The position numbers and the translations under genes were made by a program. A DNA stretch of 64,000 bases from Corynebacterium sp. GTDB taxonomy: Bacteria; Actinomycetota; Actinomycetes; Mycobacteriales; Mycobacteriaceae. The notes beneath the pieces are model-generated. The model was not told the origin of the DNA. It saw nothing but the letters and a program-made list of their open reading frames with translations, and searched no databases. The number at the start of each line of letters is the position of its first letter. The stretch's first letter is position 1. The stretch covers positions 110,294-174,293 of the forward strand of contig NZ_JAUNUG010000001.1 of NCBI RefSeq assembly GCF_030538285.1. Reading direction: 5' to 3'. Of this stretch, positions 4,315 to 63,306 are shown piece by piece.

Positions 4315-4880
4315 TAGTTGTCGGGGCGGGCGGCGTCGATAAGATCTTTGCGGGCGCGGGCGACGCGGGAACGGATTGTGCCGACGCGGACGCCGGCGAT
4401 CTTCGCGGCCTCTTCGTAGGTGTAGCCGAGGACCTGGGTGAGGATGAGGGCTTCGCGGCGTTCGGTGGGGAGGGCGTCGATAAGCGTGCGCGCGTCGATC
4501 CACTCGGACCAGGAGGAGGCGTTGGCGCCGTCAACGGGGGTCGTGGCGGCGGCGTCTTCGTATTCGGTGACGGATTTGCGGGGGCGGGCCATGTCATGGC
4601 GGATGTTGTCGACCCATACGCGGCGCGCGAGGGAGAGTAGCCACGTGCGTGCGGAGGAGCGGGCGGCGAAGCGGGGGAGTGCGCTCATGACACGGAGGTA
4701 GGTCTCCTGGGTGAGATCATCGGCGATGTCGCGGCCGCCGAGGTGAGCGAGGAGGCGCCACACGTCGTCCTGGGTGGCGCGGATGAACTCCGTCAGCGCT
4801 TCGCGGTCGCCACGACCGGCGCGGAGGGCCAGGTCGGTGACGCGGGCGTCGTCTGATGCGGAGTGCTTGCTCACGCTCAT
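4314..4880 (-). CDS. sigC: ECF-family RNA polymerase sigma factor, SigC-like
   Basis: A 188-aa sigma-70 family protein of ECF size. Region 2 lies at about 25-95, with DIADDLTQETYLRVM typical of region 2.2 and a W-x-x-x-I/A-R segment. Region 4 lies at about 125-180, with the helix-turn-helix YEEAAKIAGVRVGTIRSRVARAR. It sits directly upstream of, and divergent from, a catalase gene, the same pairing as sigC-katA in Corynebacterium glutamicum, where SigC controls respiratory-chain genes. No anti-sigma factor gene is adjacent. The name rests on this neighbourhood and family. Two copies of the dispersed GGCGTCGATAAG motif fall inside the gene. Confidence 0.8.
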   Translation of the reverse strand: MSVSKHSASDDARVTDLALRAGRGDREALTEFIRATQDDVWRLLAHLGGRDIADDLTQETYLRVMSALPRFAARSSARTWLLSLARRVWVDNIRHDMARPRKSVTEYEDAAATTPVDGANASSWSEWIDARTLIDALPTERREALILTQVLGYTYEEAAKIAGVRVGTIRSRVARARKDLIDAARPDN

Positions 4881-5016
4881 CGACGTTACCAGGGCAAACG
4901 GCAGTCAAATATTCGGATAGGTAGCGTGGGGGTTGCACGGCTCACAATATGGGCCTAGGCTATTAACTAACGCCCACCGATAGGTGGAACACATTATGAA
5001 TCCAGAAAGAGGAGCT

Positions 5017-6567
5017 ATGAGCGACCAGAACTCCAAGGCAAACGAGATCGTCGAGCGCGGTCTGCGCCCCAACGTCACCGGCAACACCACCCGCCACAAC
5101 GGTGCGCCGGTCCCGTCCGAGAACATCTCCGTCACCGCTGGCCCGCAGGGCCCGAACATCCTCAATGACATCCACCTCATTGAGAAGCTCGCCCACTTCA
5201 ACCGCGAGAACGTTCCCGAGCGCATCCCCCACGCCAAGGGCCACGGCGCCTTCGGTGAGCTCCACATCACCGAGGATGTCTCCCAGTACACCAAGGCCAA
5301 GTTGTTCCAGCCCGGGACCGTCACCCCGATGGGTGTCCGCTTCTCCACCGTCGCCGGTGAGAAGGGTTCCCCCGACACCTGGCGCGACGTGCACGGTTTC
5401 GCCCTGCGCTTTTACACCGAGGACGGTAACTACGACATTGTCGGTAATAACACCCCGACCTTCTTCGTCCGCGATGGTGTGAAGTTCCCCGACTTCATCC
5501 ACTCCCAGAAGCGCCTCGGCCGCAACGGCCTGCGCGACGCTGATATGCAGTGGGATTTCTGGACCCGCACCCCCGAGTCCTCCCACCAGGTCACTTACCT
5601 CATGGGTGACCGCGGTACCCCGAAGACCACCCGCCACATGAACGGCTACGGCTCCCATACCTTCCAGTGGGTCAACGAAAAGGGCGAGGCCTTCTGGGTG
5701 AAGTACCACTTCATCTCCCGCCAGGGTGTGGAGAACTTCACCGACGCCGAGGCCACCGAGATGGCCGGCATCAACGCCGACCACCACCGCCAGGACCTCT
5801 ACGAGGCTATCGACCGCGGCGACTACCCCATCTGGGACGTCAAGGTGCAGATCATGCCGGTGGCAGAGGCCGAGAACTACCGCTGGAACCCCTTCGACCT
5901 CACGAAGGTCTGGTCCAAGAAGGACTACCCGCGCATCGATGTCGGCTACTTTGTGCTCAACCGCAACCCGCGCAACCACTTCGCCCAGATCGAGCAGATC
6001 GCCCTCGACCCGGGCAACCTGGTCCCCGGCATCGGCCTGTCCCCGGACCGCATGCTCCAGGCCCGTGCCTTTGCGTACGCCGATCAGCAGCGTTACCGCA
6101 TCGGACCCAACTACCGCGACCTGCCGGTGAACCGTCCCCTCAACGACGTCAACACCTACAGCAACCGCGGCCCGATGGCGTACTTCTTTGACGATGAGGA
6201 TCAGCCGACCTACTCCCCGAACCGCTTCGACAAGGGGGCTGGCTACCTGGATAACGGCGAGGATTCCTCCTCCAACCACACCTCCTACGGCCAGGCCGAT
6301 GACATCTACGTCAACCCGGACCCGCACGGTACTGACCTGGTGCGCGCCGCCTACGTCAAGCACCCGGAGGACGATGACTTCGTGCAGGCTGGCATCCTCT
6401 ACAACGAGGTCCTCGATGACGCCGCCAAGCAGCGTCTCGCCGAGAGCATCGCCGGCGCGATGGTCGGCGTGACCCCCTCGGTGGAGGAGCGTTGCTACTG
6501 GTACTGGACCAGCGTCGACCCGAAGCTCGGCGAGGCTGTCAAGACCGAGTTCGCCAAGAAGAAGTAA
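5017..6567 (+). CDS. katA: Haem catalase
   Basis: A 516-aa clade-3-size monofunctional catalase that converts hydrogen peroxide to water and oxygen in the cytoplasm. The distal His lies in [12 protein letters not shown], the distal Asn in NNTPTFF, and the proximal haem-ligand region is [21 protein letters not shown]. The reading frame opens further upstream (a GTG at 4984 and an ATG at 4996), but ATG 5017 gives the normal catalase N-terminus and follows AGAGGAG, though only two bases separate that site from the codon. Codon use is strongly biased to C-ending codons, as in highly expressed genes. A variant of the dispersed motif (GCTTCTCGACGCC, 6573) begins six bases after the stop. Confidence 0.96.
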
Positions 6568-6592
6568 CTACTGCTTCTCGACGCCCGCGCTC

Positions 6593-6624
6593 AGCCCGCC
6601 CCGCAGTTTTTGCGGTGGCGGGCT
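6593..6624. terminator. Hairpin after katA
   Basis: A nested stem AGCCCGCC-CCGCA / TGCGG-T-GGCGGGCT with a GTTTT loop, 26 bp after the katA stop. It is stable, but no T-tract follows on the plus strand, so it may protect the mRNA rather than terminate transcription. Confidence 0.4.
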
Positions 6625-6651
6625 TGGCGTCTGCGGGGTGCACGGCCTGCT

Positions 6652-6731
6652 ATTTCCCCTGCAAACGAGTATTTCGGCCATGCATATGCACAGTGAAAAT
6701 ACCCCGTTTGCAGGGGGGCACTGGGGGAAAT
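6652..6731. repeat. Long imperfect palindrome between katA and mnhG
   Basis: CCCCTGCAAACG (6656-6667) is perfectly complementary to CGTTTGCAGGGG (6705-6716). After a small bulge the stem continues with GTATTT / AAATAC. The loop holds a 10-bp palindrome TGCATATGCA (6681-6690). A weaker outer pair, ATTTCCCC / GGGGAAAT, can form with 6724-6731. It lies between convergent genes and contains no ORF. Either a transcription barrier or a protein-binding site. Confidence 0.7.
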
Positions 6732-6802
6732 CGCACTGAGACCCCCGCTGCGCGCCACCCTGCTCAATGACCACGGGTTCACGCCCGAGGAGGTTGAGTG
6801 GG

Positions 6803-7147
6803 CTAAGCCCCCGGCTGGTAGGCGCGGTCCTCGGCGTGTTTCTCATCCACCACGGTCACGCCGTAGATGGAGCGGCCCATGTAGTAGGAACCGACTGAGG
6901 CGACGATCCACACACCCGCGATGGCCAGCAGCGCTCGGATAAAGTTATTGAGATCGAAGCCGGTGGTTGACCAGTCGAGGATGAGCTTGGACATCAGCAA
7001 CAGCGGGAAACCCACACCGATGACGGGGCCGAGCAGGTTGACGCGTGTCAGGGCATCGGGCGCGCGCCACATCGCGACGGAGGTGGTCACCACCATGAGG
7101 GTGGCGGTGATGGCAAGGATCGAGACGATGATCTCGGCGACAGACAT
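6803..7147 (-). CDS. mnhG: Na+(K+)/H+ antiporter subunit G
   Basis: A 114-aa membrane protein of the MnhG/MrpG family with three predicted transmembrane helices (about 5-25, 38-58 and 66-88) and a short charged tail. It is the last gene of the mnhA-C-D-E-F-G operon, and its ATG overlaps the mnhF stop codon by one base (TAATG). MnhG is a small required subunit of the multisubunit cation/proton antiporter, and its own role is poorly defined. The family assignment follows from size, hydrophobic pattern and operon position. Confidence 0.88.
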   Translation of the reverse strand: MSVAEIIVSILAITATLMVVTTSVAMWRAPDALTRVNLLGPVIGVGFPLLLMSKLILDWSTTGFDLNNFIRALLAIAGVWIVASVGSYYMGRSIYGVTVVDEKHAEDRAYQPGA

Positions 7148-7835: not shown

Positions 7836-7836
7836 G

Positions 7837-9360
7837 TCAGCGGCCTCCCTGGAGGTCGGTCATGTCGGGAACACCGATCGGATCCTCGCCCAAGACGGCG
7901 GCCGCGTAGCCGTCGACGTCGAGGAGGCCTTCGGTGGCGGTGAGGGTGGCGTCGATAAGCGGGCCCGCGAAGATGAACATCGCCAGCGATCCTGCCATGA
8001 GCACCGCGGAGGGGGCGATGAGCCGGGCGGAGATGCGCAGCTCCTTGGGGTAGCGTTGCATCGGCTTACCCCAGAACACCTCGCGCCAGACGCGCAGCAT
8101 GGACAGCAGCGCACCGATGGAGGCGACCACGATGACGGCGATGACCAGCCATGCCCACCAGTCGACAGCGCGGGCAATCTCGAAGACCAGCAGGATCTTG
8201 CCCCACATGCCCGAGAACGGCGGGAAACCGACGATGGAGAACGCGCCCGCGGCGAACAGCGCTGCCACGATGGGATCGCGCCGGGCCAGACCCGAGAGCT
8301 TGGACAACAGCCCGGTGGCGTAGGTCTCCTCGATCGCGCCCGAGGTGAGCAGCAGTGCGCCGACGGTGACCATGTGGTGCAGCGTGTACAGCAGGCCGGC
8401 GGCCAACGCGCGTTGCGGATCATCTGAGGTGAACGCCAGCATGACCAGGATGAACGGCATGCCGTTGATCATCTGGTAACCCAGCACGCGGCGGATCGAG
8501 TTCTCCGCCAGACCCGCGAAAGCGCCGATGAGCATCGAGACCACCATGATGGCGATGATGAGCCAGTTCCAGCGGTCCTCTAGATCGAAGATGTTCACGT
8601 AGATGCGGTAGAGCATGTACACCGCGACCTTCGTGTGCAGGCCGGAGAACAGGCCCATCACGGCTGCGGAGGTTTCCGGGTAGGTGCGCGGCAACCAGGT
8701 GTGGACCGGGAAGACACCGGCCTTGGCACCCACGGCGATGACCACCAGGCCCATGGCGACCACCGCCGGGCCGTTACCCGCGGCAACCCCCTGGAGCGCG
8801 GCGATGTTCACCGTGCCGGTGACGCCGTAGAGCACGCCGACACCGATGAGCAGCAGCGTCGAGGCCGCCAGGTTGACCAGTACAAACGCACGCCCACCGG
8901 CCAGGCGTGCCCAGGTGCCGGACATGGCGATCAGACCGTAGGAGGGCAGCAGCATGACCTCGATGAACACGAAGAAGTTGAACAGATCGGCGGTCAGCAG
9001 CGCGCCGTTGACACCCGTGATGAGGATGAGCGTCAACGAGGCGTAGTAGCGGTTGACCGTCTCACCGGAGATGGTGGCGAACCAGTTGGCGGTGGCCGCG
9101 ACGATCATCGTGGTGATGATCATGATTGCGGCGAAAGTATCCGCCGCAAACGGGATGGCCACACCACCGACATACAGGCCGACGTTGTGGGCGATGGGAC
9201 CGTTGTCCGCAGTGTGCAGGAACAACCAGATACCGGCGGCGACGCCGAGCAGCGGGATACCGATGTGGAGCACATCGCGGGCCCAGCGCCACGGCAGCAG
9301 CACCGCGATAGCCGCGGTGAACAGCGGGATGGCGGCGAAAAGGGGGAGAGTCCAGTCCAT
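7837..9360 (-). CDS. mnhD: Na+/H+ antiporter subunit D (NuoN/ND-like)
   Basis: A 507-aa polytopic membrane protein of the proton-translocating ND2/4/5 family with about 14 helices. Conserved features visible are the helix with F-F-V-F-I-E-V-M-L-L-P-S-Y (buried Glu) and K-A-G-V-F-P-V-H-T-W-L-P with its Lys in the channel. MnhA and MnhD are the two ND-like ion-translocating subunits of Mrp antiporters. The start ATG overlaps the last base of mnhC. A copy of the GTCGATAAGC motif (7951) encodes L-I-D-A near the C-terminus. Confidence 0.93.
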   Translation of the reverse strand: MDWTLPLFAAIPLFTAAIAVLLPWRWARDVLHIGIPLLGVAAGIWLFLHTADNGPIAHNVGLYVGGVAIPFAADTFAAIMIITTMIVAATANWFATISGETVNRYYASLTLILITGVNGALLTADLFNFFVFIEVMLLPSYGLIAMSGTWARLAGGRAFVLVNLAASTLLLIGVGVLYGVTGTVNIAALQGVAAGNGPAVVAMGLVVIAVGAKAGVFPVHTWLPRTYPETSAAVMGLFSGLHTKVAVYMLYRIYVNIFDLEDRWNWLIIAIMVVSMLIGAFAGLAENSIRRVLGYQMINGMPFILVMLAFTSDDPQRALAAGLLYTLHHMVTVGALLLTSGAIEETYATGLLSKLSGLARRDPIVAALFAAGAFSIVGFPPFSGMWGKILLVFEIARAVDWWAWLVIAVIVVASIGALLSMLRVWREVFWGKPMQRYPKELRISARLIAPSAVLMAGSLAMFIFAGPLIDATLTATEGLLDVDGYAAAVLGEDPIGVPDMTDLQGGR

Positions 9361-9737: not shown

Positions 9738-12730
9738 CGCTCGGCCTCCTTCTCGGTATCGGTCTGGGCATCGGTCTCAGTATCGGTCTCAGCGACGAGT
9801 ACCGAGCGCGGCGCATCGGCTGGGTTGATCGGCTCGGGGAAGGACTCGGCGTGCCCCTCGCCTTTCTCGATGGTCGGGGTGGCGGGCAGGGGCCCGTCTT
9901 CGTCGATACGCGCGTAGTTGAGGTCGTTGACGTCCACGCCCGGGCGCAGGTAGCCGCCGAGAGCGTTGATCGCCATGGTGAGCATGCCGAGCACCGCCAG
10001 GTAGATACCCAGGTCGAAGATGAGCGAGGTGGTCATGTGCTCGCCGAGGATGTAGCCGTGGATGGCGTAGAGGAAGGAGCCCTCCAACAGGCCGATGAAG
10101 CCCGCGCCGACGGCGGTCATGATGCCGATGCCGGTGAGCCACACCGGGGTGGACTCGCGGAAGACGATGCCGTCCTGGCCCTTCGACAGATACGCCAGGC
10201 CGATGGCGGCACCCATGATCAGGGCTGCGACGAAGCCGCCGCCCGGATCTTGGTGGCCGCGCATGAACACGAGCACGCTGAGGATCGCCAGCACCGGGAT
10301 GACCAGCAGGATGACCTTGCGCATCGGGATCGAGTTGAGCTGCGACTGGCCGAACGGTGCCGGGCGGGTGCCCTCCTTGAAGGGGTGGCGCGGCATGGAG
10401 TGGGCGACCGCGGCGATGACGATCGCCGCCATGCCCAGCACGGAGAGCTCGCCGAGGGTATCCAGGGCGCGGAACTCGACAAGGATGACCGCCACGATGT
10501 TCTGGCCGCCGGTGATCTCCGGGGCCTGGTCGAGGTACCACATGGCCAGCTCGGAACGCTCGCGGCGACCCAGCAGCGCGAAGACGCCACCGAAGGTGAC
10601 CACGCCGGCCGCCAGGGCGATGATGAAGGAGCCGATCTGGCGTCGGGAGGAGGTGACCTTGGGGAACAGGTTCGGCTGGTAGCGCAGGACCATCATGATG
10701 ACGATGACGGTAAGAGCCTCGACCGTCAGCTGCGTGAGTGCCACGTCAGGTGCGCCAAGCAGCATCATCTGCAGGCTCATGCCCACGCCGACGGTGCCGA
10801 TGAGCACCGCGGCCGACAGGCGCGAGTTGGTGATCGCCAGGCCCACGACCGACACGCCGATGATGATGAGCGGGATGAGGTCCCACGGGTTGTCCAGGCC
10901 TTCGGTGCGCGGGGCCGGGGTGATGCCGTCGACGCCCGGCGACAGGTAGGTTGCTCCGCCGAGGACGATGACGCACAGCACCAGCGGCAGCAGGTGGCGC
11001 GAGGGGTTGTGGGTGTTGGCCATGGCGCCGACGGCACGGCCGAAGCGCCCGGAGATGCGCACGCCGTGCTCGAGCAGTTCGTTGCCGGAGGAGGGGAACA
11101 TCTTGCGCCCCTCCAGTACCGGCCAGATCTGCTTGCGGAAGACCACGCCGATGATGCCGACGATGAGCACACCCACCGAGATCAGCAGCGGGGTGTTGAT
11201 GCCGTGCCACAGCGCCAGATGCGACTCGTGCTCGGCGCCGATGGAGGCGGTGATGGCGTCGAGGGGGGCGTCGAAAAGCCCCGCTAAGAAGGCGAAGGGC
11301 AAAGACATCAGGCCCGGCAGGGCGGCCGGCAGCCACAGGGAGACCGGGGCCTCGTGGACCTTGGACATGTCGCGCGGGCCGTCGATGAACGCGCCGAAGA
11401 CGATCTTCGCGGAGTACGTGAAGGTGAGCACCGCGCCGATCGCGGCGACGAACAGCAGCAGGCCGGAGTAGGGGGCGTCCTGGAAGGCGGTGAGCATGCC
11501 CTCCTTGGACAAAAAGCCCAGCAGCGGCGGGACCGCGGCCATCGACGCCGCGCCGATGACCACCGAGGCGAACGTGAACGGCATCTTGTCCCACAGGCGG
11601 CCCAGGCGGCGGATGTCGCGGGAACCGGCCTCATGGTCGATGACACCGATGAGCATGAACAGGGAGGACTTGAACAGCGCGTGCGCGGCGGTGTGCACCA
11701 CGGCCGCGGCGAGGGCGAAGGGGGTGCCCACACCGATCGTCGCGACGATCCAGCCCAGGTGGGAGACCGTCGAGTAGGCGGTGAGCTGCTTGAGGTCAGT
11801 CTTCTGCACGGCAAAGGCCGCGGACATGATCGCGGTGGCCATACCGGCGATGATGAGCAGCCCGTTCCACACGGCCACGTCGTGGAACACGGTGGAGAAA
11901 CGCAGCAGCAGGTAGATACCGGCCTTGACCACGGCGGCGGCGTGCAGGAAGGCGGAGACTGGCGTGGCGGCGGCCATGGCCTCCGGCAGCCAGAAGTGGA
12001 AGGGCAGCTGTGCGGACTTGGTGAAAGCGGAGACTGCGACCAGCACCGCCAGGCCAGCGGTGACACCGGGGCTCTCCGCCCAGAAATCGGCCGCCAGGAT
12101 GTCCGAGAGGCGGGTGGTGCCCGCGGTGGTCGCAGCGACGGCCACGGCCACCAGCAGCGTCAGGCCACCGATGAAGGTGAGGATGAGGGTGCGGATGGAC
12201 CCGGCCTCGCCGGAGGAGCCCGAGCGCGCAATCAGCATGAACGACGCCAGCGACACCAGCTCCCAGGCGAGGAAGAGGAGCACCACGTCGTCGGCAAGCA
12301 CGAGCAGGAGGATCGACAACGTAAACGCCGTCATGATCGTGTAGAAACTGGTGTTGCCCTGGCGTTTCGGCAGATACGCCGCAGAATAGATGAACACCAC
12401 CGCGCCGATGATCAGCGCCAGCATGGCAAAGAACACACCCAGCGCATCACCCCGCAACGCCAGCGAGACATCCATTCCCGGGGCCACGACATCCGTGACC
12501 CACACGTAGTCGAAGGTGAGGGGTCGGCCGTCGATAACCGCGGGAAGTTCCCTGCCGAGCGCCACCGCCCCCGCCACGAAGAGGGCGGCCAGCGGCCACC
12601 CTGCCTTTCTGTCGAGCACACGCACCGCAGGTGGGGCCGCAACCACCGCCACAGCCGCGAGCGTTATGACAAGGATCAGTGTCACTGGGGAACCACGCTC
12701 AATATGTTCGGAAACAGTTAGGAATCTCAT
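9734..12730 (-). CDS. mnhA: Na+/H+ antiporter subunit A, fused A-B type
   Basis: A 998-aa protein. The N-terminal two thirds are ND5-like, with S-A-Q-L-P-F-H-F-W-L-P-E-A-M and H-A-A-A-V-V-K-A-G-I-Y. The remainder combines a DUF4040-like part (about 620-730) and an MnhB-like domain (about 800-950, with D-P-G-G-G-F). The operon therefore has no separate mnhB. It is first in the operon and is the largest ion-translocating subunit, active in Na+/K+ tolerance and pH homeostasis. The start is ambiguous: ATG 12730, or GTG 12685, which begins the first helix directly. Divergent from the next gene. Confidence 0.9.
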   Translation of the reverse strand: MRFLTVSEHIERGSPVTLILVITLAAVAVVAAPPAVRVLDRKAGWPLAALFVAGAVALGRELPAVIDGRPLTFDYVWVTDVVAPGMDVSLALRGDALGVFFAMLALIIGAVVFIYSAAYLPKRQGNTSFYTIMTAFTLSILLLVLADDVVLLFLAWELVSLASFMLIARSGSSGEAGSIRTLILTFIGGLTLLVAVAVAATTAGTTRLSDILAADFWAESPGVTAGLAVLVAVSAFTKSAQLPFHFWLPEAMAAATPVSAFLHAAAVVKAGIYLLLRFSTVFHDVAVWNGLLIIAGMATAIMSAAFAVQKTDLKQLTAYSTVSHLGWIVATIGVGTPFALAAAVVHTAAHALFKSSLFMLIGVIDHEAGSRDIRRLGRLWDKMPFTFASVVIGAASMAAVPPLLGFLSKEGMLTAFQDAPYSGLLLFVAAIGAVLTFTYSAKIVFGAFIDGPRDMSKVHEAPVSLWLPAALPGLMSLPFAFLAGLFDAPLDAITASIGAEHESHLALWHGINTPLLISVGVLIVGIIGVVFRKQIWPVLEGRKMFPSSGNELLEHGVRISGRFGRAVGAMANTHNPSRHLLPLVLCVIVLGGATYLSPGVDGITPAPRTEGLDNPWDLIPLIIIGVSVVGLAITNSRLSAAVLIGTVGVGMSLQMMLLGAPDVALTQLTVEALTVIVIMMVLRYQPNLFPKVTSSRRQIGSFIIALAAGVVTFGGVFALLGRRERSELAMWYLDQAPEITGGQNIVAVILVEFRALDTLGELSVLGMAAIVIAAVAHSMPRHPFKEGTRPAPFGQSQLNSIPMRKVILLVIPVLAILSVLVFMRGHQDPGGGFVAALIMGAAIGLAYLSKGQDGIVFRESTPVWLTGIGIMTAVGAGFIGLLEGSFLYAIHGYILGEHMTTSLIFDLGIYLAVLGMLTMAINALGGYLRPGVDVNDLNYARIDEDGPLPATPTIEKGEGHAESFPEPINPADAPRSVLVAETDTETDAQTDTEKEAER

Positions 12731-12803
12731 CTGACGTTACCAGGAGTGACCTACCGCGCGCCTACCACATCATCCACCCCATCTACCAGTACTTTCGGAG
12801 GGT

Positions 12804-41165: not shown

Positions 41166-41175
41166 GTCGATAAGC
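41166..41175 (+). repeat. Intergenic copy of the dispersed GGCGTCGATAAGC motif
   Basis: An exact GGGGCGTCGATAAGC copy in non-coding DNA, five bases past the stop codon of the YczE-like gene. It shows the motif is not tied to coding sequence. Confidence 0.8.
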
Positions 41176-47272: not shown

Positions 47273-49863
<2,591 letters not shown>

Positions 49864-49864: not shown

Positions 49865-49966
49865 CTAGATCGCCTGCCCCAGAAGGTAGCCGCCGAGGCC
49901 GGCGGTGAGCGTCGCAAAGCAGGCGAACACCCAGAACAACAGGGGCGGCCAGTCCTCGCCCGACAT
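49865..49966 (-). CDS. 33-aa membrane peptide between dsbA-like and ccdA-like genes
   Basis: A small ORF with ATG 49966 preceded by a good GGAGG site. The start overlaps the stop of the dsbA-like gene (TAATG), and the stop is one base before the ccdA-like start. The peptide begins M-S-G-E-D-W-P-P-L, followed by a single hydrophobic helix (L-L-F-W-V-F-A-C-F-A-T-L-T-A-G-L-G-G) with one Cys, and ends L-L-G-Q-A-I. The tight spacing and ribosome-binding site support expression. Possibly a small subunit of the thiol-redox system; no family recognised. Confidence 0.72.
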   Translation of the reverse strand: MSGEDWPPLLFWVFACFATLTAGLGGYLLGQAI

Positions 49967-52783: not shown

Positions 52784-53650
52784 CTAGCCGTCCTGCGCGA
52801 CGGCCAGCAGGTACTCGCCGTAGCCGGACTTGAGCAGCGGCTGGGCCAGCCTCTCCAGGGCGGCGGCGTCGATGAAACCCTCCCGGTAGGCGGCGACCTC
52901 CGGCGAGCCGATCACCTGGCCGGTGCGTTTCTGGATCACCTCGACGTAGGAGGAGGCTTCGCTCATCGAGTCGAAGGTGCCGGTGTCAAGCCACACGTCG
53001 CCGCGCTGCAGACGCTGTACGTGCAGGTCACCGGCCTGCAGGTAGGCGTCGTTGACGGCGGTGATCTCCAACTCCCCGCGCTCACTGGGCCGGATGCCCT
53101 TCGCGATGTCCACCACCCGCCGGTCGTAGAAGTACAGGCCGACGACCGCGTAGTTCGACTTCGGGGTGTCCGGTTTCTCCTCGATGCTCAAGGCCCGTCC
53201 GTCCGCGGAGAACTCCACGACGCCGTAGCGCTCGGGGTCGGAGACCTCATAGGCGAAGACCGTGCCGCCTTCCGGGTGCCGGCAATCGGCTAGCGTGGTG
53301 GAGAAGTGGTAGCCGTCGAAAATGTTGTCACCCAGCGCCAGCGCCACGTCATCGTCGCCGATGAAGTCCTCGCCGATGAGAAAGGCCTGCGCCAGCCCAT
53401 CGGGGGAGGGCTGGTGGGCGTAGTCGATCATCAGCCCCCACTGGGAACCGTCGCCGAGGAGGCGTCGAAAAGCGGGCGAATCCTCCGGTGTCGTGATCAC
53501 CAGAATCTCCCGGATCCCTGCCTGGATGAGCGTGGACAGCGGGTAGTAGATCATCGGCTTGTCGTAGATCGGCATGAGCTGCTTCGAGATGCCCTGCGTG
53601 ATCGGATATAACCGGGTCCCGGAACCGCCAGCGAGGATGATGCCCTTCAT
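52784..53650 (-). CDS. rmlA: Glucose-1-phosphate thymidylyltransferase
   Basis: A 288-aa nucleotidyltransferase with the signature [12 protein letters not shown], catalytic-site [15 protein letters not shown] and E-E-K-P. It converts glucose-1-phosphate and dTTP to dTDP-glucose, the first step of dTDP-L-rhamnose synthesis for the arabinogalactan linker. ATG 53650 overlaps rmlCD by four bases and is the family start; ten upstream codons are open. Confidence 0.94.
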
Positions 53651-54962
53651 AGCAGATACAGTGCCAGACTGGTGCGCCAATTCTGTGGCACGAAACCGCT
53701 TGCCTCGATCTTCGCCGTGCTCAGTGTGCTTATCGACGGCCGCGCCGCATGCGCCTTCCCTGCAAAGTACTGCTCGCTTGTCACCGGCTGCACCATGTTC
53801 GGATCGCGGTTCATTCCGGCGTAGACAGCCATCGCGAGCTCATCGAAACCGACCTCGTCTCCACCGCCCGTCAGGTGGTAGATCCCGTACTCCGGCTGCG
53901 CGGTGAGCAGATGGATGATGCCCTTAGCCAGCTCGGAAGCGAAGGTGGGGCGGCCCTTCTGGTCATGCACCACCTGCGGTCGGATGTCGCGTTCCGCTAG
54001 GCCACGCATGGTGTCGACGAAGTTCTTCCCCTCGCCCACCACCCAGCTGGTGCGCAGAATGTAGTGGCGCGGGGTAGTGCTCACGGCCGCCTCACCTGCT
54101 GCTTTCGATGCCCCGTAGACGTTCAGCGGGGCTACCGGTTCGTCCTCTGTATACGGGCGATCTGTGATGCCGTCGAAAACATAGTCAGTAGACAGGTGGA
54201 CGAGAGTGAGATTGTTCTCCGCCGCGATCCGCGCCAGCCGCGCCGGGCCCTGGGCGTTGACGGCCCAGGCCTTATCCGGCTCCTGCTCCGCCTGATCGAC
54301 GGCGGTATACGCCGCACAGTTGATGATCGCCGAGTACTGCCGCCAGTTTCGGGCCGGCGGATCAGTGATGTCGAACTCCTCATGGGTGAGGAACTCGGCG
54401 TCGATAAGCACCTTCCGCAAGGCACGACCAACCTGGCCACTCGCGCCGGTGACCAGCACCTTCCGTGGCTTGACGGACTCCAGCTCGCGCGTGAGCTCCC
54501 GGTCCTTCGCCGACAGATTGCGGGGCGTCAGCGGCCAGTCGATGAGCTCATGCGAGACGTTGACGTAGGCGGCGTCCGGGGACCAGTGGTCGTTAACCAG
54601 GTAGAGATACGTGGTGGCATCCTCGAGCACCTGGTAGCCGTTGGCCACCCCGCGAGGCACGAACACCGCGGTGCCCGGGCCGATCTCCACAGTCTGCGTC
54701 TGGCCATAAGTAGGGGAGCCTTTCCGCAGGTCACACCACCCGCCCTGCACCCGACCGGTGCCCACGGTGACGAGCTTGTCCCACGGTTCCGCGTGCAACC
54801 CGCGGGTCGTGCCCTGCTCGGCGTTGAACGCGACATTCGACTGGACCGGGCGGAAGTCCGGCAGTCCCTCCTGCGTCATCCGGGCACGATTCCAGGCCTC
54901 CTTGAACCAACCACGCTCATCCTCGTGGACCCGCAGGTCCAGTACCAGTAGTCCCTCGATCA

Positions 54963-54963: not shown

Positions 54964-55973
<1,010 letters not shown>

Positions 55974-56026: not shown

Positions 56027-57046
56027 ATGACGACCCTGTTTTCATTGCCCGACGATCCCGCCGAACAAGTTGCGCACCTGCTGAGCCACATCGCCGTCTC
56101 CGACACCTTCAGCATCCCGCTTAACGACGCCCGCCCCCAGGGCCTCGTGCACTACGGCGCGCGTTTCCACCCGCGCGGATTGGCTTACTCGGCTCCGGCC
56201 ACCGCCCGCGCAGTTGCCCATCACCTGGAGAGGCCGGGGTCGATCATCGCCGAATGGTCTGCGCTCGACATCCTGGGTGTACCTGATTTTTCCGATGCCG
56301 CCGACACTACCCTGCTGTGTTCGTCTGATCGGCGCTTGACCAGGTCTCCTCTTCAGCCGACTGTGCGTCGTCGAACGAAAAAGCACCGGACGCTGGAGCG
56401 TCACGTCGGGTCCCGGAAAGTAATGGTCACCGACCATCTCGACACCCTCGCCGGGTGCCTTCGATCGCTGGAAAATGGCGAACATGCCTGGGACACCCTC
56501 GCCACCCTGGACATCGATCCGATAACCATCATGTCCGTCCAGGTCATCGACCGTTTCCGGAGGGTCTTTGGCGCCAGCACTGACCAGTTGAGGACTGGTT
56601 TGAAAGGAAAAATCCGGGCCCGACGACTCGAAGCTCTCTTGCTGCTTAGCTGTGCGCTGACGGACTCAAAACCCGAAACGGTACTGCGACTGTTGGCCAG
56701 GGAGGCAGTGGCTGACCTGCCGGAAGTGCAATTTCAATCTCAGATTCCCGTCTACGCCGATGGGGAAATCGGTCGAACCGGTGAGAAAAGCCCGGACAAG
56801 ACCCTGCTGACCATTCTTGATCAAGCCGCCGCCGCCCTGAAGGTCGGGCTGCAGCAGGACGGGGAACATCATCTGGAGAGAAAGCAGCGCGACAAAGACG
56901 CCGAGATCACAGCCGACCTCTTGAGCACAGGCTGGCAGCTGGTACGTACTTCGACCGGAATGCTGCGGAAAACCAGCGAAACCAAGCGTCGTATCCGTGC
57001 CGCGGCGCTCCGGGCGTTGCACGCGAGGGGGGAGATGGCTTCGTAA
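56027..57046 (+). CDS. Accessory protein with DUF559/Vsr-like endonuclease domain
   Basis: A 339-aa protein that reads as an accessory gene inserted beside rmlB. The N-terminal half (about 1-170) includes W-S-A-L-D-I-L-G and a basic R-R-R-T-K-K-H-R patch, like the AbiEi/transcriptional part of two-domain actinobacterial proteins. The C-terminal part (about 240-330) has G-L-Q-Q-D-G-E-H-H-L-E-R-K-Q-R-D-K-D, which matches the D-G-E-x-H...Q-x-x-x-D core of DUF559/MTES_1575 restriction-endonuclease-fold proteins. GGAG is two bases before ATG 56027. Function unknown; a role in DNA processing or defence is an inference. Confidence 0.7.
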   Translation: MTTLFSLPDDPAEQVAHLLSHIAVSDTFSIPLNDARPQGLVHYGARFHPRGLAYSAPATARAVAHHLERPGSIIAEWSALDILGVPDFSDAADTTLLCSSDRRLTRSPLQPTVRRRTKKHRTLERHVGSRKVMVTDHLDTLAGCLRSLENGEHAWDTLATLDIDPITIMSVQVIDRFRRVFGASTDQLRTGLKGKIRARRLEALLLLSCALTDSKPETVLRLLAREAVADLPEVQFQSQIPVYADGEIGRTGEKSPDKTLLTILDQAAAALKVGLQQDGEHHLERKQRDKDAEITADLLSTGWQLVRTSTGMLRKTSETKRRIRAAALRALHARGEMAS

Positions 57047-57159: not shown

Positions 57160-58389
57160 GCCACCGGGGGGCGTCATTTCTTCCCCCGCGCCGCCTGCAG
57201 CGCCGGCCCCACGCAGCGCCACCGCGTGCACCAGCCCGCCGGCCACCGGCCCGGCTACCAGCGCCACGCATACACCGGCCTCCAGCGACAGAGGCGCCAA
57301 CCAGAGCACACCGAAAGCCACCACTGACGCCGCGACCCAGCCAACCACGTAGGCCTTGTGCAGCTCGGAGGCCAACGCGGCCGCGCCGGTAACCATGAGT
57401 GAGCCGGTGCAGGCCGAGGCGAACGTCAATACGGCCAGCAATGCACCGGGCACGTACAGGTCGGCGGGGAAGAAGTTCGCCAGGATCCACGGCCCGAGCA
57501 GCCACGCCAGGCCGGCCCCGATGACGCCGATGCCAAGCACCGCCAGCACCGGCATCACGAGTGCCCGGTACAACGCCCCGCGTTGCTCGACGAAGCGGAC
57601 GATGAGAGCCGACTGGAAGCGCTGCAGCGGCACCAGGATGGGGGCGCGGGTCAGCGTCACGGCGTTGATGATGCCGGCGACGGTCACCACTGTCCCGGAG
57701 CCGGGCGGGTAGGTGGACTGGACGAAGACGGGAAAGCCGGTGATCAGTGCGGCGGAGGCGCCGGTAGCGACCATGGCGGACAAAACCCGGCGGGTGAAGG
57801 TGGGGTGGGTGACGTCGATAAGCACGGAACGCGGCACTCCCCGCAACACAATCAGCCAACTCAACGCGCCGACCACCGTGATGAACAGGAAGGCCTCGAT
57901 GCCCCAGCCCAGCCGCCATGCCGTCAGCGCCAGCAGGAGTCGCACGCCGGAATCCAGTGCGACGAGCCCGGCGTAGCGGCGCCACAGCCCGAGGCCGGAG
58001 AGCACTCCGGACAGTACGGTCTGGAAAGCGTAGGTCAGCAGGCCGAACGCCAGGAAGGCGACAGCCATGCCGACGGGGGCTTCGCCGCGCAGCAGGCGTG
58101 GCAGCCAGAGCAATCCGACGACGAGCGCCACCAGTAGCACCACGCCGCCGACCCATGCCCCGAGTCGCCACGGGCGGCCGGAGCCGACGCGACCGGTCTC
58201 GCGGGCGGCGGAAACGCCGCGGGTGGTCTCCTGCATGATGCCGTCGAGGAAGCCGGTGGCCGCGAAGAACAGCCCCCAGTAGGCCTGGAAGGCGGCGAAA
58301 CTGGTGGTGGGCAGCGTCCAGGAGGCCAGGTAGATGACGACGAAGCCGGCGAGCGCCGCGAAGACCGTCGCCAGACTTAAGGCGCGCAA
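57154..58389 (-). CDS. Polytopic membrane protein, flippase-like (MVF/O-antigen type)
   Basis: A 411-aa protein with about 12 predicted helices and few charged residues, like lipid-linked polysaccharide flippases. The position downstream of a peptidase and near the rhamnose cluster agrees with Rv3630, an integral membrane protein. No ATG suits the N-terminus. TTG 58389 (read M-R-A-L-S-L) has GGAG at six bases and overlaps the M1 peptidase gene by 13 bases; the open frame continues upstream to 58752 inside that gene. A GTCGATAAGC motif at 57814 is read L-I-D. Confidence 0.78.
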   Translation of the reverse strand: MRALSLATVFAALAGFVVIYLASWTLPTTSFAAFQAYWGLFFAATGFLDGIMQETTRGVSAARETGRVGSGRPWRLGAWVGGVVLLVALVVGLLWLPRLLRGEAPVGMAVAFLAFGLLTYAFQTVLSGVLSGLGLWRRYAGLVALDSGVRLLLALTAWRLGWGIEAFLFITVVGALSWLIVLRGVPRSVLIDVTHPTFTRRVLSAMVATGASAALITGFPVFVQSTYPPGSGTVVTVAGIINAVTLTRAPILVPLQRFQSALIVRFVEQRGALYRALVMPVLAVLGIGVIGAGLAWLLGPWILANFFPADLYVPGALLAVLTFASACTGSLMVTGAAALASELHKAYVVGWVAASVVAFGVLWLAPLSLEAGVCVALVAGPVAGGLVHAVALRGAGAAGGAGEEMTPPGGS

Positions 58390-59756: not shown

Positions 59757-61747
59757 GATGCCGAAGATGTTACCTGCTGCCCCAACCACTCGTAGATGAG
59801 AGCCTCCACCCGCGCGACCTGTGCGTTATCGGCGGCGCCGGCGTGCCCACCCTCGATGTTCTCGAAGTAGTCGACGGGTTGCCCGGCGTCGCGCAGGGCT
59901 TGCGCGAACAGGCGGGCGTGCGCGGGGTGGACGCGGTCGTCTCGCGTTGAGGTGGTCACGAGTGCTGGTGGATATTGCTTATCGACGCCCGCCTGAACGT
60001 TATGCAGCGGCGACCACTTTTCAATGGCCGCCCGTTCGACGGGGTCGTCGGGGTTGCCGTACTCTGCCATCCAGGACGCTCCGGCGGACCAGGTGTGGTA
60101 ACGCAGCATGTCGGTGAGGGGGACCTGGATGACCGCCGCGCCGAAGAGTTCGGGGTACTGTACCAGGGCGCCGGAGGTGAGCAGGCCGCCGTTGGAGCCG
60201 CCGCGGATGGCGATCTGCTCCGGGGATGCGTAGCCGCGTTCGACCAGGTCAGCCAGTACCGCGGCGTGGTCCTCCCACACCTTGTGGCGGTTGGTCTTGA
60301 CCACCTGGGTGTGCCACTCGGGGCCGAACTCGCCCCCGCCGCGCAGGTTGGGTTGGACGAAGAAGTGCCCCTTCTCCAGCCAGGCGATGCCCCGTACCGC
60401 GGAGTATCCGGGGGTGAGGGAGACCTCGAAACCTCCGTAGCCGCCGACGAGTGTCGGGCGGGGCCCGCGGGAGAAATCGCCGCTGATGAAATAGGGCACG
60501 CGGGTGCCGTCGGCGGAGGTGACCCAGTATTGGCGGGTGTGCAGGCCGGTGGCGTCGAAAAGCGCGGGGGAGCGGCGCACCACCTGTGGCGTGAGACCGT
60601 CGGCGAGGTCAAGGCGGTACAAGGTGGTGGGTTCGGTGAAGGAGGAGGTGGTCAGCCACACTTCGTTGCCGTCGAGCGGGCTGGTGGCCACCACGGAGGC
60701 CGTGACAAGTGGCGGCACCTCCAGGTCGCGGCCCGGCTGGGTCGGGTCGGAGAGGGGGTGGACACTCAGCCGGGTGGTGACGTCGTCGAGAAGCGTGAGC
60801 ACCAGGTGATCGGCGGTGAACGCCGTGGCCTGCAAGGAAACGTGCGGCGTGGGCAGGAAGACCGGGCGGATGTCGCGGCCGCCGTCAAGGAAATCACGCA
60901 GCCGGATGCAGCCCAGGCCGCCGGCGGGAATCCTGGCGAAGGCCTCGCGAGGGGCGAGGAAAAGCCATTCGCGGTGGAGGATGGTCTCGCAGTCCTCCGG
61001 CACCTCGAGGACCTGCAGGGACGCATCCGGATCCAGGGGTGCGACGGATTGGCGGGTGCGGTAGAAGTCAAGCGCCCGGGAGACGATGATCCGCTCGAAA
61101 CCCGGAGTGGTGTCAGCCCACGCGCCGACGGCGACGTCGTCGAGGCGGCCGGAGGTGTAGACGGGGGCGTCGATAAGCGGGGTGCCGCGGCGCCACACCC
61201 GAACCTGCGCCGGATAACCGGAGGCCGTGAGGGACCCGGCGCCGGTGTCGGTGCCCACCAGCAGGGTGTCCAGATCGAGCCAGCTGACGTCGGTCTTGGC
61301 TTCCGGGAGCTGGAAGCCATCCACGAAAACGCCGTCCACCAGGTCGAATTCGCGGATGACGGTGGCATCGGCGCCGCCGCGGGACAGGCGGACCAGGGCC
61401 CGGTCGTATCCGGGGGTGCGCACGTGCGCGCCCTTCCACACCCAGTTTTCGCCCTCGGCGCTGGCCAGGGCGTCGACGTCGATAAGTACTTCCCAGTTGG
61501 TGTCCGGAGCGAGATAGGAATCCAGGGTGGTGCGCCGCCACACCCCGCGCACGTGCCGGGCATCGCGCCAGAAGTTATACAGGTGCTCGCCGCGGCGGAT
61601 GACGAACGGGATGCGGTCATCGACATCCAGGGCTGCGCGGATCCGCTCCCGCAACCCTGGGTTATCCAGCCCGGACTCGGTCGCATTCGACCAGGTGCGG
61701 GCCCAGGCCAGGGCCTCCGGGGCGTCGACGGACTCAAGAAAACTCAT
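59753..61747 (-). CDS. Prolyl-oligopeptidase-family (S9) serine peptidase
   Basis: A 664-aa protein with an N-terminal beta-propeller-like region (about 60-400) and a C-terminal alpha/beta-hydrolase domain. The nucleophile is in G-G-S-N-G-G-L-L, the Asp in R-D-D-R-V-H, and the His in G-G-H-A-G. The family cleaves short peptides after Pro or basic residues. TAGCCT lies six bases before ATG 61747. Three motif copies (59977, 61169, 61478 with one mismatch) and two central-base variants (60554, 60785) make this the motif-richest gene. Confidence 0.9.
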   Translation of the reverse strand: MSFLESVDAPEALAWARTWSNATESGLDNPGLRERIRAALDVDDRIPFVIRRGEHLYNFWRDARHVRGVWRRTTLDSYLAPDTNWEVLIDVDALASAEGENWVWKGAHVRTPGYDRALVRLSRGGADATVIREFDLVDGVFVDGFQLPEAKTDVSWLDLDTLLVGTDTGAGSLTASGYPAQVRVWRRGTPLIDAPVYTSGRLDDVAVGAWADTTPGFERIIVSRALDFYRTRQSVAPLDPDASLQVLEVPEDCETILHREWLFLAPREAFARIPAGGLGCIRLRDFLDGGRDIRPVFLPTPHVSLQATAFTADHLVLTLLDDVTTRLSVHPLSDPTQPGRDLEVPPLVTASVVATSPLDGNEVWLTTSSFTEPTTLYRLDLADGLTPQVVRRSPALFDATGLHTRQYWVTSADGTRVPYFISGDFSRGPRPTLVGGYGGFEVSLTPGYSAVRGIAWLEKGHFFVQPNLRGGGEFGPEWHTQVVKTNRHKVWEDHAAVLADLVERGYASPEQIAIRGGSNGGLLTSGALVQYPELFGAAVIQVPLTDMLRYHTWSAGASWMAEYGNPDDPVERAAIEKWSPLHNVQAGVDKQYPPALVTTSTRDDRVHPAHARLFAQALRDAGQPVDYFENIEGGHAGAADNAQVARVEALIYEWLGQQVTSSAS

Positions 61748-61814: not shown

Positions 61815-62867
61815 CTAGAAGAGTGCGCGCTGCAGGGTCGGCCAGGACTTCTCGACGTCCTCGATCCAGTAGTTCCAGGAGTGGGTGCCGGTCGGACGCA
61901 GGTTCCAGTCGGCGTTAATGCCCAGGTTGTCCAGCTTGGCCTTGAGGTTGTGGGTGCAGATGTTGGTGGCTGCCTCAATGGCACCGCCCTCGACGATGAG
62001 GGTGGCAGCACCTGCGGAGGCCTCGGCCGGGTTGACGCCCTGGGCGGTGTAGTAGCCCGGCATGTCGTACTCGCCGGCCAGGCCGGTGGCGTTGGAGATG
62101 TAGAGCTCGGAGCCGCGCAGACCCTCGGCGTGGATGAGGGCGTCGTTGGCGCGGTTGTGCGGCGAGCCCATCGGGCCGAGCATGTCGACGATGTTGGAGC
62201 CGGCACGGTCCACGGTCAGCTCAGCGGACTTGTAGCCGATGAAGGAGGAGGTCTCGGCGCAGCCGGAGAAGGAACCGACACCGTTGTAGAAGCCCGGGTT
62301 CTTCTCAGCCAGCAGCAGGGCGGAGGTGGCGGACATGGAGAAGCCCGCGATGGCGCGCTTGTCGTTCGCGCCGAGGTAGTCCTCGACGGCGCCCGGCAGC
62401 TCCTTGGTCAGGAAGGTCTCCCACAGCTGGGTGCCCTTGAGGTAGCCCTTGCTGTTGCCCGGGTTCGGGTTGGCCCAGTCGATGTAGTAGGAGAAAGCGC
62501 CCTCCTGCGGGATGACGACGTTGACGCCGCGGTCCTTGTAGAACTTGACCAGCTCCGGGTAGCGGGTCAGCCAGTCCATGTTCTGCTCGGCGCCGCCGGC
62601 ACCGTTGAGCAGGTAGAGGGTCGGGGCGTTCGGCTGATCGGCCTTGATGATGGCGTGGGGGATCTTGCGGTCCATGGCCGGGGAGTAGATGTCGACCTGC
62701 TCGACGCCATGCTGCTTGGCGACGGTGCGCCAGGTGCGGTCGCTGTTGGGGTACTCGGCGACCTCGACGGTGACGGCCGGGTTGGCCAAGGCAGCCGGGG
62801 CGACCAGGGTGGACGCGCCGATGGCGAGGGCCGCGATGGGGGCGGCAATCCTGCGGAGGAGCTTCAT
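61815..62867 (-). CDS. Secreted corynomycolyltransferase-like esterase (antigen 85 family)
   Basis: A 350-aa protein with a signal peptide (about 1-28, cleaved after A-L-A). The alpha/beta-hydrolase fold has the nucleophile Ser in G-F-S-M-S-A-T-S-A, and a late His in G-T-H-S-W-N-Y-W. This is the family that transfers mycolyl groups between trehalose monomycolate, arabinogalactan and proteins. AGGAAGT precedes ATG 62867 by six bases. It has its own promoter region and a strong terminator. Which acceptor it uses cannot be read from sequence. Confidence 0.9.
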   Translation of the reverse strand: MKLLRRIAAPIAALAIGASTLVAPAALANPAVTVEVAEYPNSDRTWRTVAKQHGVEQVDIYSPAMDRKIPHAIIKADQPNAPTLYLLNGAGGAEQNMDWLTRYPELVKFYKDRGVNVVIPQEGAFSYYIDWANPNPGNSKGYLKGTQLWETFLTKELPGAVEDYLGANDKRAIAGFSMSATSALLLAEKNPGFYNGVGSFSGCAETSSFIGYKSAELTVDRAGSNIVDMLGPMGSPHNRANDALIHAEGLRGSELYISNATGLAGEYDMPGYYTAQGVNPAEASAGAATLIVEGGAIEAATNICTHNLKAKLDNLGINADWNLRPTGTHSWNYWIEDVEKSWPTLQRALF

Positions 62868-62928
62868 GGAGTGACTTCCTAGATCTTTCGGTGATAGCCG
62901 GACGGAATTTCCGACGCCGTACACAGGT

Positions 62929-62942
62929 GTACATCGTAGAGA
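62929..62942. promoter_or_regulatory. Inverted repeat upstream of the mycolyltransferase-like gene
   Basis: GTACAC-AG-GTGTAC, 62 bases before the start codon, in the 307-base gap 62868-63174 between two divergent genes. It is the size and position of an operator. The rest of the gap holds a GC-rich hairpin (63079-63099) in the leader of the peptide gene and no ORF that I can support. Confidence 0.5.
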
Positions 62943-63060
62943 CTGCCGCTTATGTTAACCCTCCACCCCCGAACGTGCGCGGGTACGGGGGTGACAGCAC
63001 ACTCCCTGCGTGAAACTCAAGTTACCCAAGTTTCCAGTGGTGGGCAAGTGGTAGTTGTGT

Positions 63061-63066
63061 CATAAT
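63061..63066 (+). promoter_or_regulatory. Possible -10 element for the 36-aa peptide gene
   Basis: CATAAT preceded by TTGTGT; the -35 region is weak (TGGGCA or TGGTGG). A transcript from here would have a leader of about 100 bases. Confidence 0.4.
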
Positions 63067-63174
63067 GCTTGGCAGTTCCCGGGGTGCCCTCCCCGGGGCC
63101 GAAACGTAACGTTAAGCGGCGTCGGACCGCTAAAGACACTGATAGAGTCACCCAGCCACAGAAAAGAGCAGAGC

Positions 63175-63285
63175 ATGACCATCTTCGAGCAGATCATCGT
63201 CGCCATCAATACCTTCATCGGCCCCGGCATCCACGCCATGTCCTCCGCCTCCTCCCAGGCGGCCCTGATGGCGGGCCTGTTCTAA
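63175..63285 (+). CDS. 36-aa hydrophobic/amphipathic peptide
   Basis: A short gene between the mycolyltransferase-like gene and lpd. The peptide begins M-T-I-F-E-Q-I-I-V-A-I-N-T-F-I-G, continues G-P-G-I-H-A, then has a Ser-rich stretch M-S-S-A-S-S-Q-A-A and ends M-A-G-L-F. A dedicated upstream region and a perfect terminator 18 bases after the stop support a real transcription unit. Codons are strongly C-biased, as in highly expressed genes. Size and character recall the small helical porin or mycoloylated peptides of corynebacteria (PorA/PorH/ProtX class), but I see no direct sequence match. The ribosome-binding site is weak (AGAAAAGAGCAGAG). Confidence 0.68.
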   Translation: MTIFEQIIVAINTFIGPGIHAMSSASSQAALMAGLF

Positions 63286-63293
63286 CCGCCCCC

Positions 63294-63306
63294 GCTTATC
63301 GACGCC
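63294..63306 (-). repeat. Terminator-associated copy of the dispersed motif
   Basis: GCTTATCGACGCC, exact over 13 bases; its last four bases are also the first bases of the terminator stem that follows. Confidence 0.85.

Follow-up and report, generated by a model that had tools for sequence, protein, structure and literature searches.

Results

A split word acting at the DNA level

The stretch of DNA considered here, 64,000 nucleotides of a Corynebacterium sp. genome (contig NZ_JAUNUG010000001.1, positions 110,294 to 174,293) and hereafter called the window, holds the genes of a Tad/Flp pilus and, dispersed within and around them, numerous copies of a short DNA word (Table 1). An earlier note, made from the sequence alone, had claimed 27 copies of a 10-base core, GTCGATAAGC, in strong excess over chance. 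All 27 exact matches are present where it placed them, 13 on the plus and 14 on the minus strand, and dinucleotide shuffles contain 0.06 copies on average and one at most. The four near-copies with one mismatch, at 4335, 12529, 17747 and 61478, were likewise found. Since the base 5´ of GTCGATAAGC is C in 27/27 copies, the exact unit is the 11-mer CGTCGATAAGC; 16 of the 27 reach GGCGTCGATAAGC (GGC preceding), in agreement with the claim that many extend further.

The copies of the contiguous core are real, but the earlier note overlooked that its two central bases vary. The true unit is split, CRTCGNNAAGC, with both central positions free. The window contains 50 such sites (49 CGTCGNNAAGC and one CATCGNNAAGC) vs 1.9 expected under an order-3 Markov model, their centres being AT in 27 cases, AG in eight, AA in four and AC in three, plus others. 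When words were counted de novo in sampled parts of eleven other Corynebacterium genomes, variants with other centres appeared (CGTCGGCAAGC, CATCGGCAAGC, CATCGACAAGC and CATCGGAAAGC). The preferred centre depends on species: AT in the window genome and in G009 and G010 (genomes are given by our own handles), GC in G001 and G106, and TC, TA or AA in G237 and G056, from each of which 40 kb were sampled. Words that depart from the motif at one fixed position show modest enrichment at most, and the strongest case in G009 is G at position 8 (80 vs 40); in the window, the one-off variants, summed over the rows of the Markov comparison, amount to about 64 observed vs 46 expected.

According to our rough gene list, 14 of the 27 exact copies are read as L-I-D, four as S-I-S, four as V-D-K and two as A-Y-R, and three lie outside genes or across gene ends. 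The counts for S-I-S and V-D-K agree with the earlier ones, whereas those for L-I-D (15 before) and Y-R-R (one before) differ by a site or two; the earlier note had one copy spanning a stop codon and two in intergenic DNA. Of the 49 CGTCG sites, 43 fall within called genes, in both orientations, and the commonest frame class is that in which the complement reads L-x-D (20 sites). It had been argued from the rare ATA codon of the S-I-S frame that selection must act on DNA; taken alone this argument is weak, because 14/27 copies read L-I-D in common codons. The claim itself nevertheless holds. When codons were exchanged among called genes (called roughly, from codon-position GC) with proteins and codon usage kept, the count in window genes fell from 38 to a mean of 3.3, with a maximum of 8. 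The same synonymous shuffle lowered counts from 181 to 21.1 in G009, from 99 to 8.6 in G106 and from 132 to 10.3 in G001, and two motif-poor samples showed no excess (0 and 2 observed vs 0.8 shuffled). Because codon shuffling removes most of the excess, the word acts at the DNA level.

Distribution and dialects

A genome-wide count, named as a check in the earlier note, gave 798 copies of GTCGATAAGC in the 2.95-Mb assembly of the window genome (94 contigs, 96.11% complete, 6.73% contamination) vs three for the reversed pattern. Fold values below are relative to the reversed-pattern control. CRTCGNNAAGC occurs there 2,032 times, 1,017 on the plus and 1,015 on the minus strand, which is the highest total among 242 Corynebacterium genomes. 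The word is at least 5-fold over control in 180 of the 242 (median 1,141 copies), between 2- and 5-fold in 17 and less than 2-fold in 45; 159 genomes from 56 other genera of the order reach 2.1-fold at most. Since other genera stay low, strong enrichment is a property of Corynebacterium, although roughly one fifth of the genus lacks the word, either through loss or because it was never there.

Named or labelled genomes were reached via 33 of 80 TadA loci (21 Corynebacterium genomes and 12 of neighbouring genera). Eighteen of the 21 are motif-rich. Copy numbers are 1,262 in C. striatum, 1,009 in C. tuberculostearicum, 1,162 in C. silvaticum, 1,048 in C. glucuronolyticum, 1,456 in C. haemomassiliense, 694 in C. 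phoceense and 440 in C. alimapuense, while the remaining three, C. otitidis (161), C. meridianum (157) and C. pygosceleis (144), reach 2.2- to 2.7-fold. The 12 genomes of Rhodococcus, Nocardia, Mycobacterium and neighbours remain at or below 1.8-fold, R. erythropolis being the highest (498 vs 281).

Eleven genomes (G028, G032, G087, G088, G108, G126, G137, G157, G186, G202 and G226) carry only a few hundred copies; these are possibly species in which the word decays or is just spreading. A search for some other dispersed word in 80 kb each of the motif-poor G007, G029 and G018 found none comparably strong, the best 11-mers having at most seven copies. In 80 kb sampled from G026 a second strong word, AAGTAGAGCAAC, was seen, its 11-mers occurring nine times vs 0.01-0.02 expected; it is either a local repeat or another dispersed signal.

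The word comes in two dialects that differ by species, CGTCG and CATCG. CATCG outnumbers CGTCG in 14 of the 180 rich genomes, and likewise in four weaker ones (majorities were scored by eye, with arithmetic for the 39 genomes whose CA counts were entered). Among these 39, 17 CG-majority genomes hold 108-165 CATCG copies (134 in C. tuberculostearicum), and some rich CG genomes have fewer (68 in the window genome, 31 in G002). In a ComEC tree of 45 genomes, with long branches flagged, two of them CATCG rows, 13 CATCG genomes form one group, within which C. tuberculostearicum (G106, CGTCG) is nested. Because of this nesting at least two dialect changes are needed. Most simply, the history would be a change to CA followed by a return to CG in the C. 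tuberculostearicum lineage, although this direction is our reading of the tree.

The sister lineages G001 (CATCG) and G106 (CGTCG), a single genome pair, could be aligned over about 228 kb at ~80% identity. Fully aligned are 78 of 150 CATCG sites of G001; in G106, 34 of these read CGTCGnnAAGC, two read CATCGnnAAGC and 42 lack the full word, 14 of the last missing it by one base. From the other side, 70 of 122 CGTCG sites of G106 are fully aligned, comprising the same 34 switched pairs, four with CGTCG in both genomes and 32 without the word in G001. Thus at 41 aligned positions with the word in both sisters, each genome has its own dialect in 34 cases, one is reversed, two are CATCG in both and four CGTCG in both. 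The claim of selection on DNA is supported here a second time, as at 34/41 positions the variable base is the one expected from each genome's dialect. Where these pentamers occur outside the motif, the base is conserved in 989/1,409 and 466/672 cases; comparison of motif with non-motif pentamers gives Fisher p values of 3e-13 and 4e-14, which see largely the same pairs from the two sides. Within genes, most of the switches are silent (Asp GAC/GAT, 29 and 28 listings from the two sides), and those in the sense frame exchange Val and Ile (1 and 4 listings, some of them the same site). Turnover affects half of the sites, but the base at shared sites tracks the species, as a common reader demands.

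Arrangement on chromosomes and plasmids

Over the 180 rich genomes the two strands carry 103,736 and 103,605 copies, and within genomes the balance is tighter than coin tossing would give (standard deviation of z 0.79, p 2e-5). No replication polarity was seen in the single-contig genome G009, where, with the contig start taken as near the origin, the first ten sampled stretches have 43 plus and 52 minus sites and the second ten 56 and 64. A polar motif of the Chi type or of the type that orients FtsK (KOPS) was tried and rejected: evenly drawn G009 stretches show mixed strands, and apparent all-plus runs were an effect of listing order.

Spacing at the 10-kb scale is more even than random in G106 (variance/mean 0.40, as low in 0/2,000 random sets) and in G001 (0.57, 15/2,000), and the coefficient of variation of gaps in the window, 0.69, is low (10/2,000). 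Eight abundance-matched control 8-mers of G106 have variance/mean of at least 0.98. Adjacent sites tend to alternate in orientation, 449 pairs being opposite vs 311 same in ten sampled genomes (p 6e-7); in G009 the opposite fraction is 0.628 for the motif, and 60 control 8-mers average 0.484 with a maximum of 0.603. We know of no report of such alternation.

The backbones of the plasmids checked are nearly free of the word. The C. striatum multi-resistance plasmid pTP10 has seven sites in 50.0 of its 51.4 kb, all at 5.8-13.1 kb, in a patch (5777-13119) where tetAB, mshC, the dihydroorotate dehydrogenase gene and others lie. In the 50.0 of 56.0 kb read from a second C. striatum plasmid there are one CA match and two CG sites, the latter at 15.4-15.8 kb (aac(3)-XI, sensor kinase); for comparison, the C. 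striatum genome carries about 45 sites per 100 kb. No site was found in 20 kb of C. jeikeium pA501. The site-bearing patches may be of host origin, and word counts might trace where plasmid genes come from.

Three chromosomal motif deserts were examined through 10 of 43 listed open reading frames (ORFs). The G009 desert at 920-940 kb has two transposases (Transposase_mut; rve with Mu-transpos_C_2, Pfam), an amino acid permease and one unknown, and the G106 desert at ~443-463 kb has two transposases (Transposase_mut; rve with HTH_21) and a ResIII-domain gene. In this small sample the word is rare on three plasmids, and two of three deserts hold transposases.

The pilus locus and its distribution

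Sites and pilus genes of the window are given in Table 1. The prepilin site of the Flp protein may be compared with the form G/XXXXEY described in a portion of PMC4322843. The first 4.4 kb of the window hold no site. Ten RibLong stretches (Pfam PF18957) occur in the 1,409-aa protein encoded at 37-4266.

Table 1. Sites of the word and genes of the Tad/Flp pilus neighbourhood in the window
Feature	Position	Strand	Remarks
CGTCGATAAGC site	4475..4485	+	
CGTCGAGAAGC site	6573..6583	-	
CGTCGATAAGC site	7950..7960	+	
CGTCGAAAAGC site	11269..11279	+	
CGTCGGCAAGC site	12289..12299	+	
CGTCGATAAGC site	12962..12972	-	
CGTCGATAAGC site	14718..14728	+	
CGTCGAGAAGC site	15644..15654	+	overlapping inverted pair with 15653..15663
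CGTCGACAAGC site	15653..15663	-	overlapping inverted pair with 15644..15654
CGTCGATAAGC site	19683..19693	-	
CGTCGGAAAGC site	21371..21381	-	outside called genes
CGTCGATAAGC site	21967..21977	+	
CGTCGAGAAGC site	23702..23712	-	
CGTCGATAAGC site	24662..24672	-	
CGTCGATAAGC site	24753..24763	+	
CGTCGATAAGC site	26133..26143	-	
CGTCGATAAGC site	28192..28202	-	
CATCGGCAAGC	28795..28805	-	sole other-dialect match in window; about chance level
CGTCGATAAGC site	29622..29632	+	within tadA
CGTCGACAAGC site	31118..31128	+	within tadC-like gene
CGTCGATAAGC site	32242..32252	+	within tadF-like gene
CGTCGAGAAGC site	33183..33193	+	
CGTCGATAAGC site	35272..35282	-	spans end of called gene
CGTCGATAAGC site	36856..36866	+	within DNA topoisomerase gene
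CGTCGATAAGC site	39127..39137	-	
CGTCGATAAGC site	41165..41175	+	outside called genes
CGTCGGCAAGC site	42979..42989	-	
CGTCGATAAGC site	44015..44025	-	
CGTCGACAAGC site	44210..44220	+	
CGTCGATAAGC site	45072..45082	-	
CGTCGTCAAGC site	45219..45229	-	
CGTCGAGAAGC site	46545..46555	-	
CGTCGATAAGC site	48200..48210	-	
CGTCGAAAAGC site	48338..48348	+	
CGTCGCAAAGC site	49910..49920	+	spans called gene end
CGTCGAGAAGC site	52273..52283	-	
CGTCGATAAGC site	52598..52608	-	
CGTCGAAAAGC site	53463..53473	+	
CGTCGATAAGC site	53728..53738	-	
CGTCGATAAGC site	54399..54409	+	
CGTCGATAAGC site	55772..55782	+	outside genes by rough gene calls
CGTCGTTAAGC site	56119..56129	-	
CGTCGATAAGC site	57813..57823	+	
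CGTCGATAAGC site	59977..59987	-	
CGTCGAAAAGC site	60553..60563	+	
CGTCGAGAAGC site	60784..60794	+	
CGTCGATAAGC site	61168..61178	+	
CGTCGCCAAGC site	62714..62724	-	
CGTCGATAAGC site	63294..63304	-	outside called genes
CGTCGAGAAGC site	63495..63505	+	
CpaE/Ssd-like ATPase, Tad/Flp pilus locus	28046..29119	+	TIGR03815, 216.6 bits (cut-off 154.45); candidate uptake machinery
tadA, pilus ATPase	29104..30255 (start approximate)	+	TIGR03819, 470.5 bits (cut-off 373.15)
tadB-like membrane protein	30252..31010	+	locus position and hydrophobic sequence; without NCBIfam match
tadC-like membrane protein	31007..31579	+	position and blastp relatives in other Corynebacterium; ORF without NCBIfam match
Flp major prepilin	31589..31774	+	G/MSTVEY site; from sequence
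TadE-like minor pilin (Rv3655c type)	31777..32043	+	NF041390, 28 bits (below cut-off 40); aligned relatives
TadF-like minor pilin	32043..32336	+	aligned relatives
DEAH-box helicase of helicase/secretion neighbourhood	32296..34695	-	TIGR03817, 1147.2 bits (cut-off 874.1)

ComEC is present in 241/242 Corynebacterium genomes. TadA, ComEA and prepilin peptidase were each found in 80/80 genomes of a panel chosen as 40 motif-rich and 40 motif-poor, with 79 TadA, 77 ComEA and 77 prepilin peptidase matches exceeding the curated cut-off. Copy numbers in the motif-poor half run from 51 to 183, and G171 and G179 in it are still 3.6- to 4.5-fold over control. In C. silvaticum, at ~10767-11050, the tadE-like minor pilin gene seems split over two frames, though the genome is motif-rich.

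Discussion

Among the options offered by the earlier note, an uptake sequence fits best, given balanced strands, genus-wide dialects and near absence from the plasmid backbones checked. We think it quite probable that the word is a DNA uptake sequence specific to the genus, with the consensus (GG)CRTCGNNAAGC, its function in uptake being deduced from the patterns described above. The measured features match those of an uptake sequence maintained by molecular drive, apart from absent terminator-type inverted pairs and partly uneven spacing.

A surface DNA receptor, part of an apparatus made of the Tad/Flp pilus and ComEA/ComEC, would read CRTCG and AAGC across the two-base spacer, and uptake would thereby favour fragments that carry the word. 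Recombination of the favoured fragments into the chromosome would spread and keep it, a molecular drive that could maintain a copy about every 1 to 3 kb, on both strands, wherever protein sequence tolerates it. Should the receptor's preference at position 2 shift between G and A, the copies would follow. We infer a role in uptake for the word, Tad and Com proteins as the uptake machinery, and drive, not site-by-site selection, as the force that keeps the copies. Alternation of orientation would be in keeping with a reader that draws in DNA on one side of the word.

Several results weigh against an uptake sequence. Conservation in relatives, judged from the two sister lineages, is mixed: about half of the fully aligned sites are common to G001 and G106 (36/78 and 38/70), while the other half turned over, and 72/150 sites of G001 and 52/122 of G106 are not fully aligned. 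It is the own-dialect result at 34/41 positions that carries the argument, and therefore the odds of uptake are unchanged though only about half of the sites are shared. Evenness is inconsistent, since G009 (112/2,000) and the binned measure of the window (1,105/2,000) do not stand out and the gap variation is not low in G001 (424 of 2,000) or G106 (344 of 2,000). Alternation is reversed in G004 (12 opposite, 16 same) and G005 (20, 26). Inverted pairs are rare, with three opposite-strand pairs within 30 bp among 536 sites. Finally, the G009 desert at 805-825 kb yielded no transposase among the three ORFs tested, which were an apolipoprotein N-acyltransferase and two unknowns.

The machinery adds to these difficulties. 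ComEC, TadA, ComEA and prepilin peptidase are alike in motif-rich and motif-poor genomes and had to be dropped as discriminators; because motif-poor genomes have the same machinery, it permits the word but does not explain it. A covariation scan for the reader, over Tad columns in 4 CA and 19 CG loci and Com columns in 13 CA and 26 CG genomes, found no column of these proteins that separates the dialects, and thus no reader protein. The TadC motif PR[D/A]GP stood out first as a dialect determinant and failed on 40 further genomes (7 CA, 17 motif-poor and 16 CG, compared by pattern, not alignment): A occurs in G023 (CG) and D in G024 (CA, with 352 CG sites), RDGP/RAGP is absent in 6/16 CG genomes, and motif-poor genomes carry either form.

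Other readers of the word are conceivable. Copies inside genes, a sharp split specificity, genus-wide occurrence with some motif-poor species and partly even spacing would suit a binding site of a protein that organises the chromosome or nucleoid; selection for binding at scattered places would keep the word, which would vanish in species along with the protein. We regard this as unlikely: a change in the protein would require one and the same base change at numerous sites under weak selection, alternation is not predicted, and such a site should serve plasmids and islands too, yet it is rare there.

For a Chi-like signal in recombination, read by AdnAB or a different end-processing helicase-nuclease, speak the many copies on the chromosome and the few on the plasmids checked. 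Chi words also vary between species, as stated in part of PMC3630211. A polar site of this kind is disfavoured, however, because no polarity was seen, neither an arm bias in G009 nor unequal strands, and we consider it very unlikely. Nine fixed positions over 11 bp are, moreover, long for Chi.

Rarity on the plasmids checked could also mean that the word is a self-tag, read by a methyltransferase or an immigration-control nuclease that spares DNA with the word; its asymmetric split form would suit a modification target, and a change of specificity subunit could produce dialects. Restriction sites are, however, usually avoided and not multiplied, a spacer of two bases is unusual for Type I targets, and among the 15 titles listed of 174 the Corynebacterium methylome literature has nothing to the point, all of which leaves the self-tag highly improbable. 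Nucleoid and modification readings explain less than uptake does, and these two and the Chi-like signal fit the following of dialects and the plasmid gaps less well. That the word has no reader and arises as a by-product when repair or mutation is biased, for which abundant words of no agreed function such as cyanobacterial HIP1 are a precedent, is scarcely credible for an asymmetric 11-bp word with a free centre, alternating orientation, one base following the species at shared sites and only modestly enriched one-off variants.

The wider proposal drawn from an uptake sequence is of a Corynebacterium sexual code, the first Gram-positive uptake sequence, read by a Tad/Flp-type pilus, split, alternating, and with CG and CA dialects that would set the exchange between species on skin and mucosa, the dialect having changed at least twice and about a fifth of the genus being without it. 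On balance we lean towards it. We know of no other Gram-positive uptake sequence, known ones being those of Neisseriaceae and Pasteurellaceae, so the proposal would imply an origin outside these families. No title among the open-access matches listed mentions an uptake sequence or this word in Corynebacterium, and the eight open-access papers found to contain the GTCGATAAGC string concern other subjects by title.

If an uptake sequence is the right reading, natural transformability with a preference for own DNA is, or was until recently, a trait of most species of Corynebacterium, bacteria that are common on human skin and in the nose and have relatives in industry and among pathogens. Gene flow could then be read from DNA alone, as gene patches on a resistance plasmid stand out, and a genetic tool for strains hard to transform might be gained. 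The sister pair would moreover let molecular drive be studied as an experiment of nature: within a tenth of the genome, the two lineages differ at one and the same base of dozens of matched sites.

Comparison with known systems

HIP1 of cyanobacteria is very abundant in coding DNA, and its function is open; it is a contiguous palindromic octamer, whereas the Corynebacterium word is asymmetric and split. The uptake signal sequence (USS) of Pasteurellaceae has a 9-bp core and two related types in the family, and is abundant on both strands with even spacing. The Corynebacterium word resembles it as an abundant short word on both strands in two types; the words themselves differ, and USS goes with a Gram-negative type IV pilus. 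A 2025 paper, in the part cited, calls the USS receptor unknown (PMC12616744).

In Micrococcus luteus, an actinobacterium, Tad/Flp pili with ComEA/ComEC serve transformation, as given in part of PMC4322843. Its tad genes, Flp pilin, prepilin peptidase, comEA and comEC are all present in the window genome, which has one TadA match whereas M. luteus needs two tad loci (same source). Within the part of that source considered, its main text, the terms 'uptake sequence' and 'sequence specific' are absent.

The DNA uptake sequence (DUS) of Neisseriaceae is read by the minor pilin ComP. The Corynebacterium word is unrelated to it, has a free two-base centre, few inverted pairs and alternating orientation, and occurs in a genus with Tad/Flp pili of which a fifth or so is without it; inverted pairs are common for Neisseria DUS, according to the cited portions of PMC3630211, on which the following also draws. 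The two are alike in copy number, in-gene copies and single-base dialects: a genome of 2-3 Mb has from about 900 to nearly 6000 DUS, some of them inside genes, and DUS dialects differ by single bases, with residual 'peregrine' copies of a neighbour's dialect (PMC3630211). The residual CATCG copies in CG-majority Corynebacterium resemble these peregrine DUS, and the overlapping inverted pair at 15644-15663 of the window, CGTCGAGAAGCTTGTCGACG, resembles the overlapping DUS pairs of S. muelleri.

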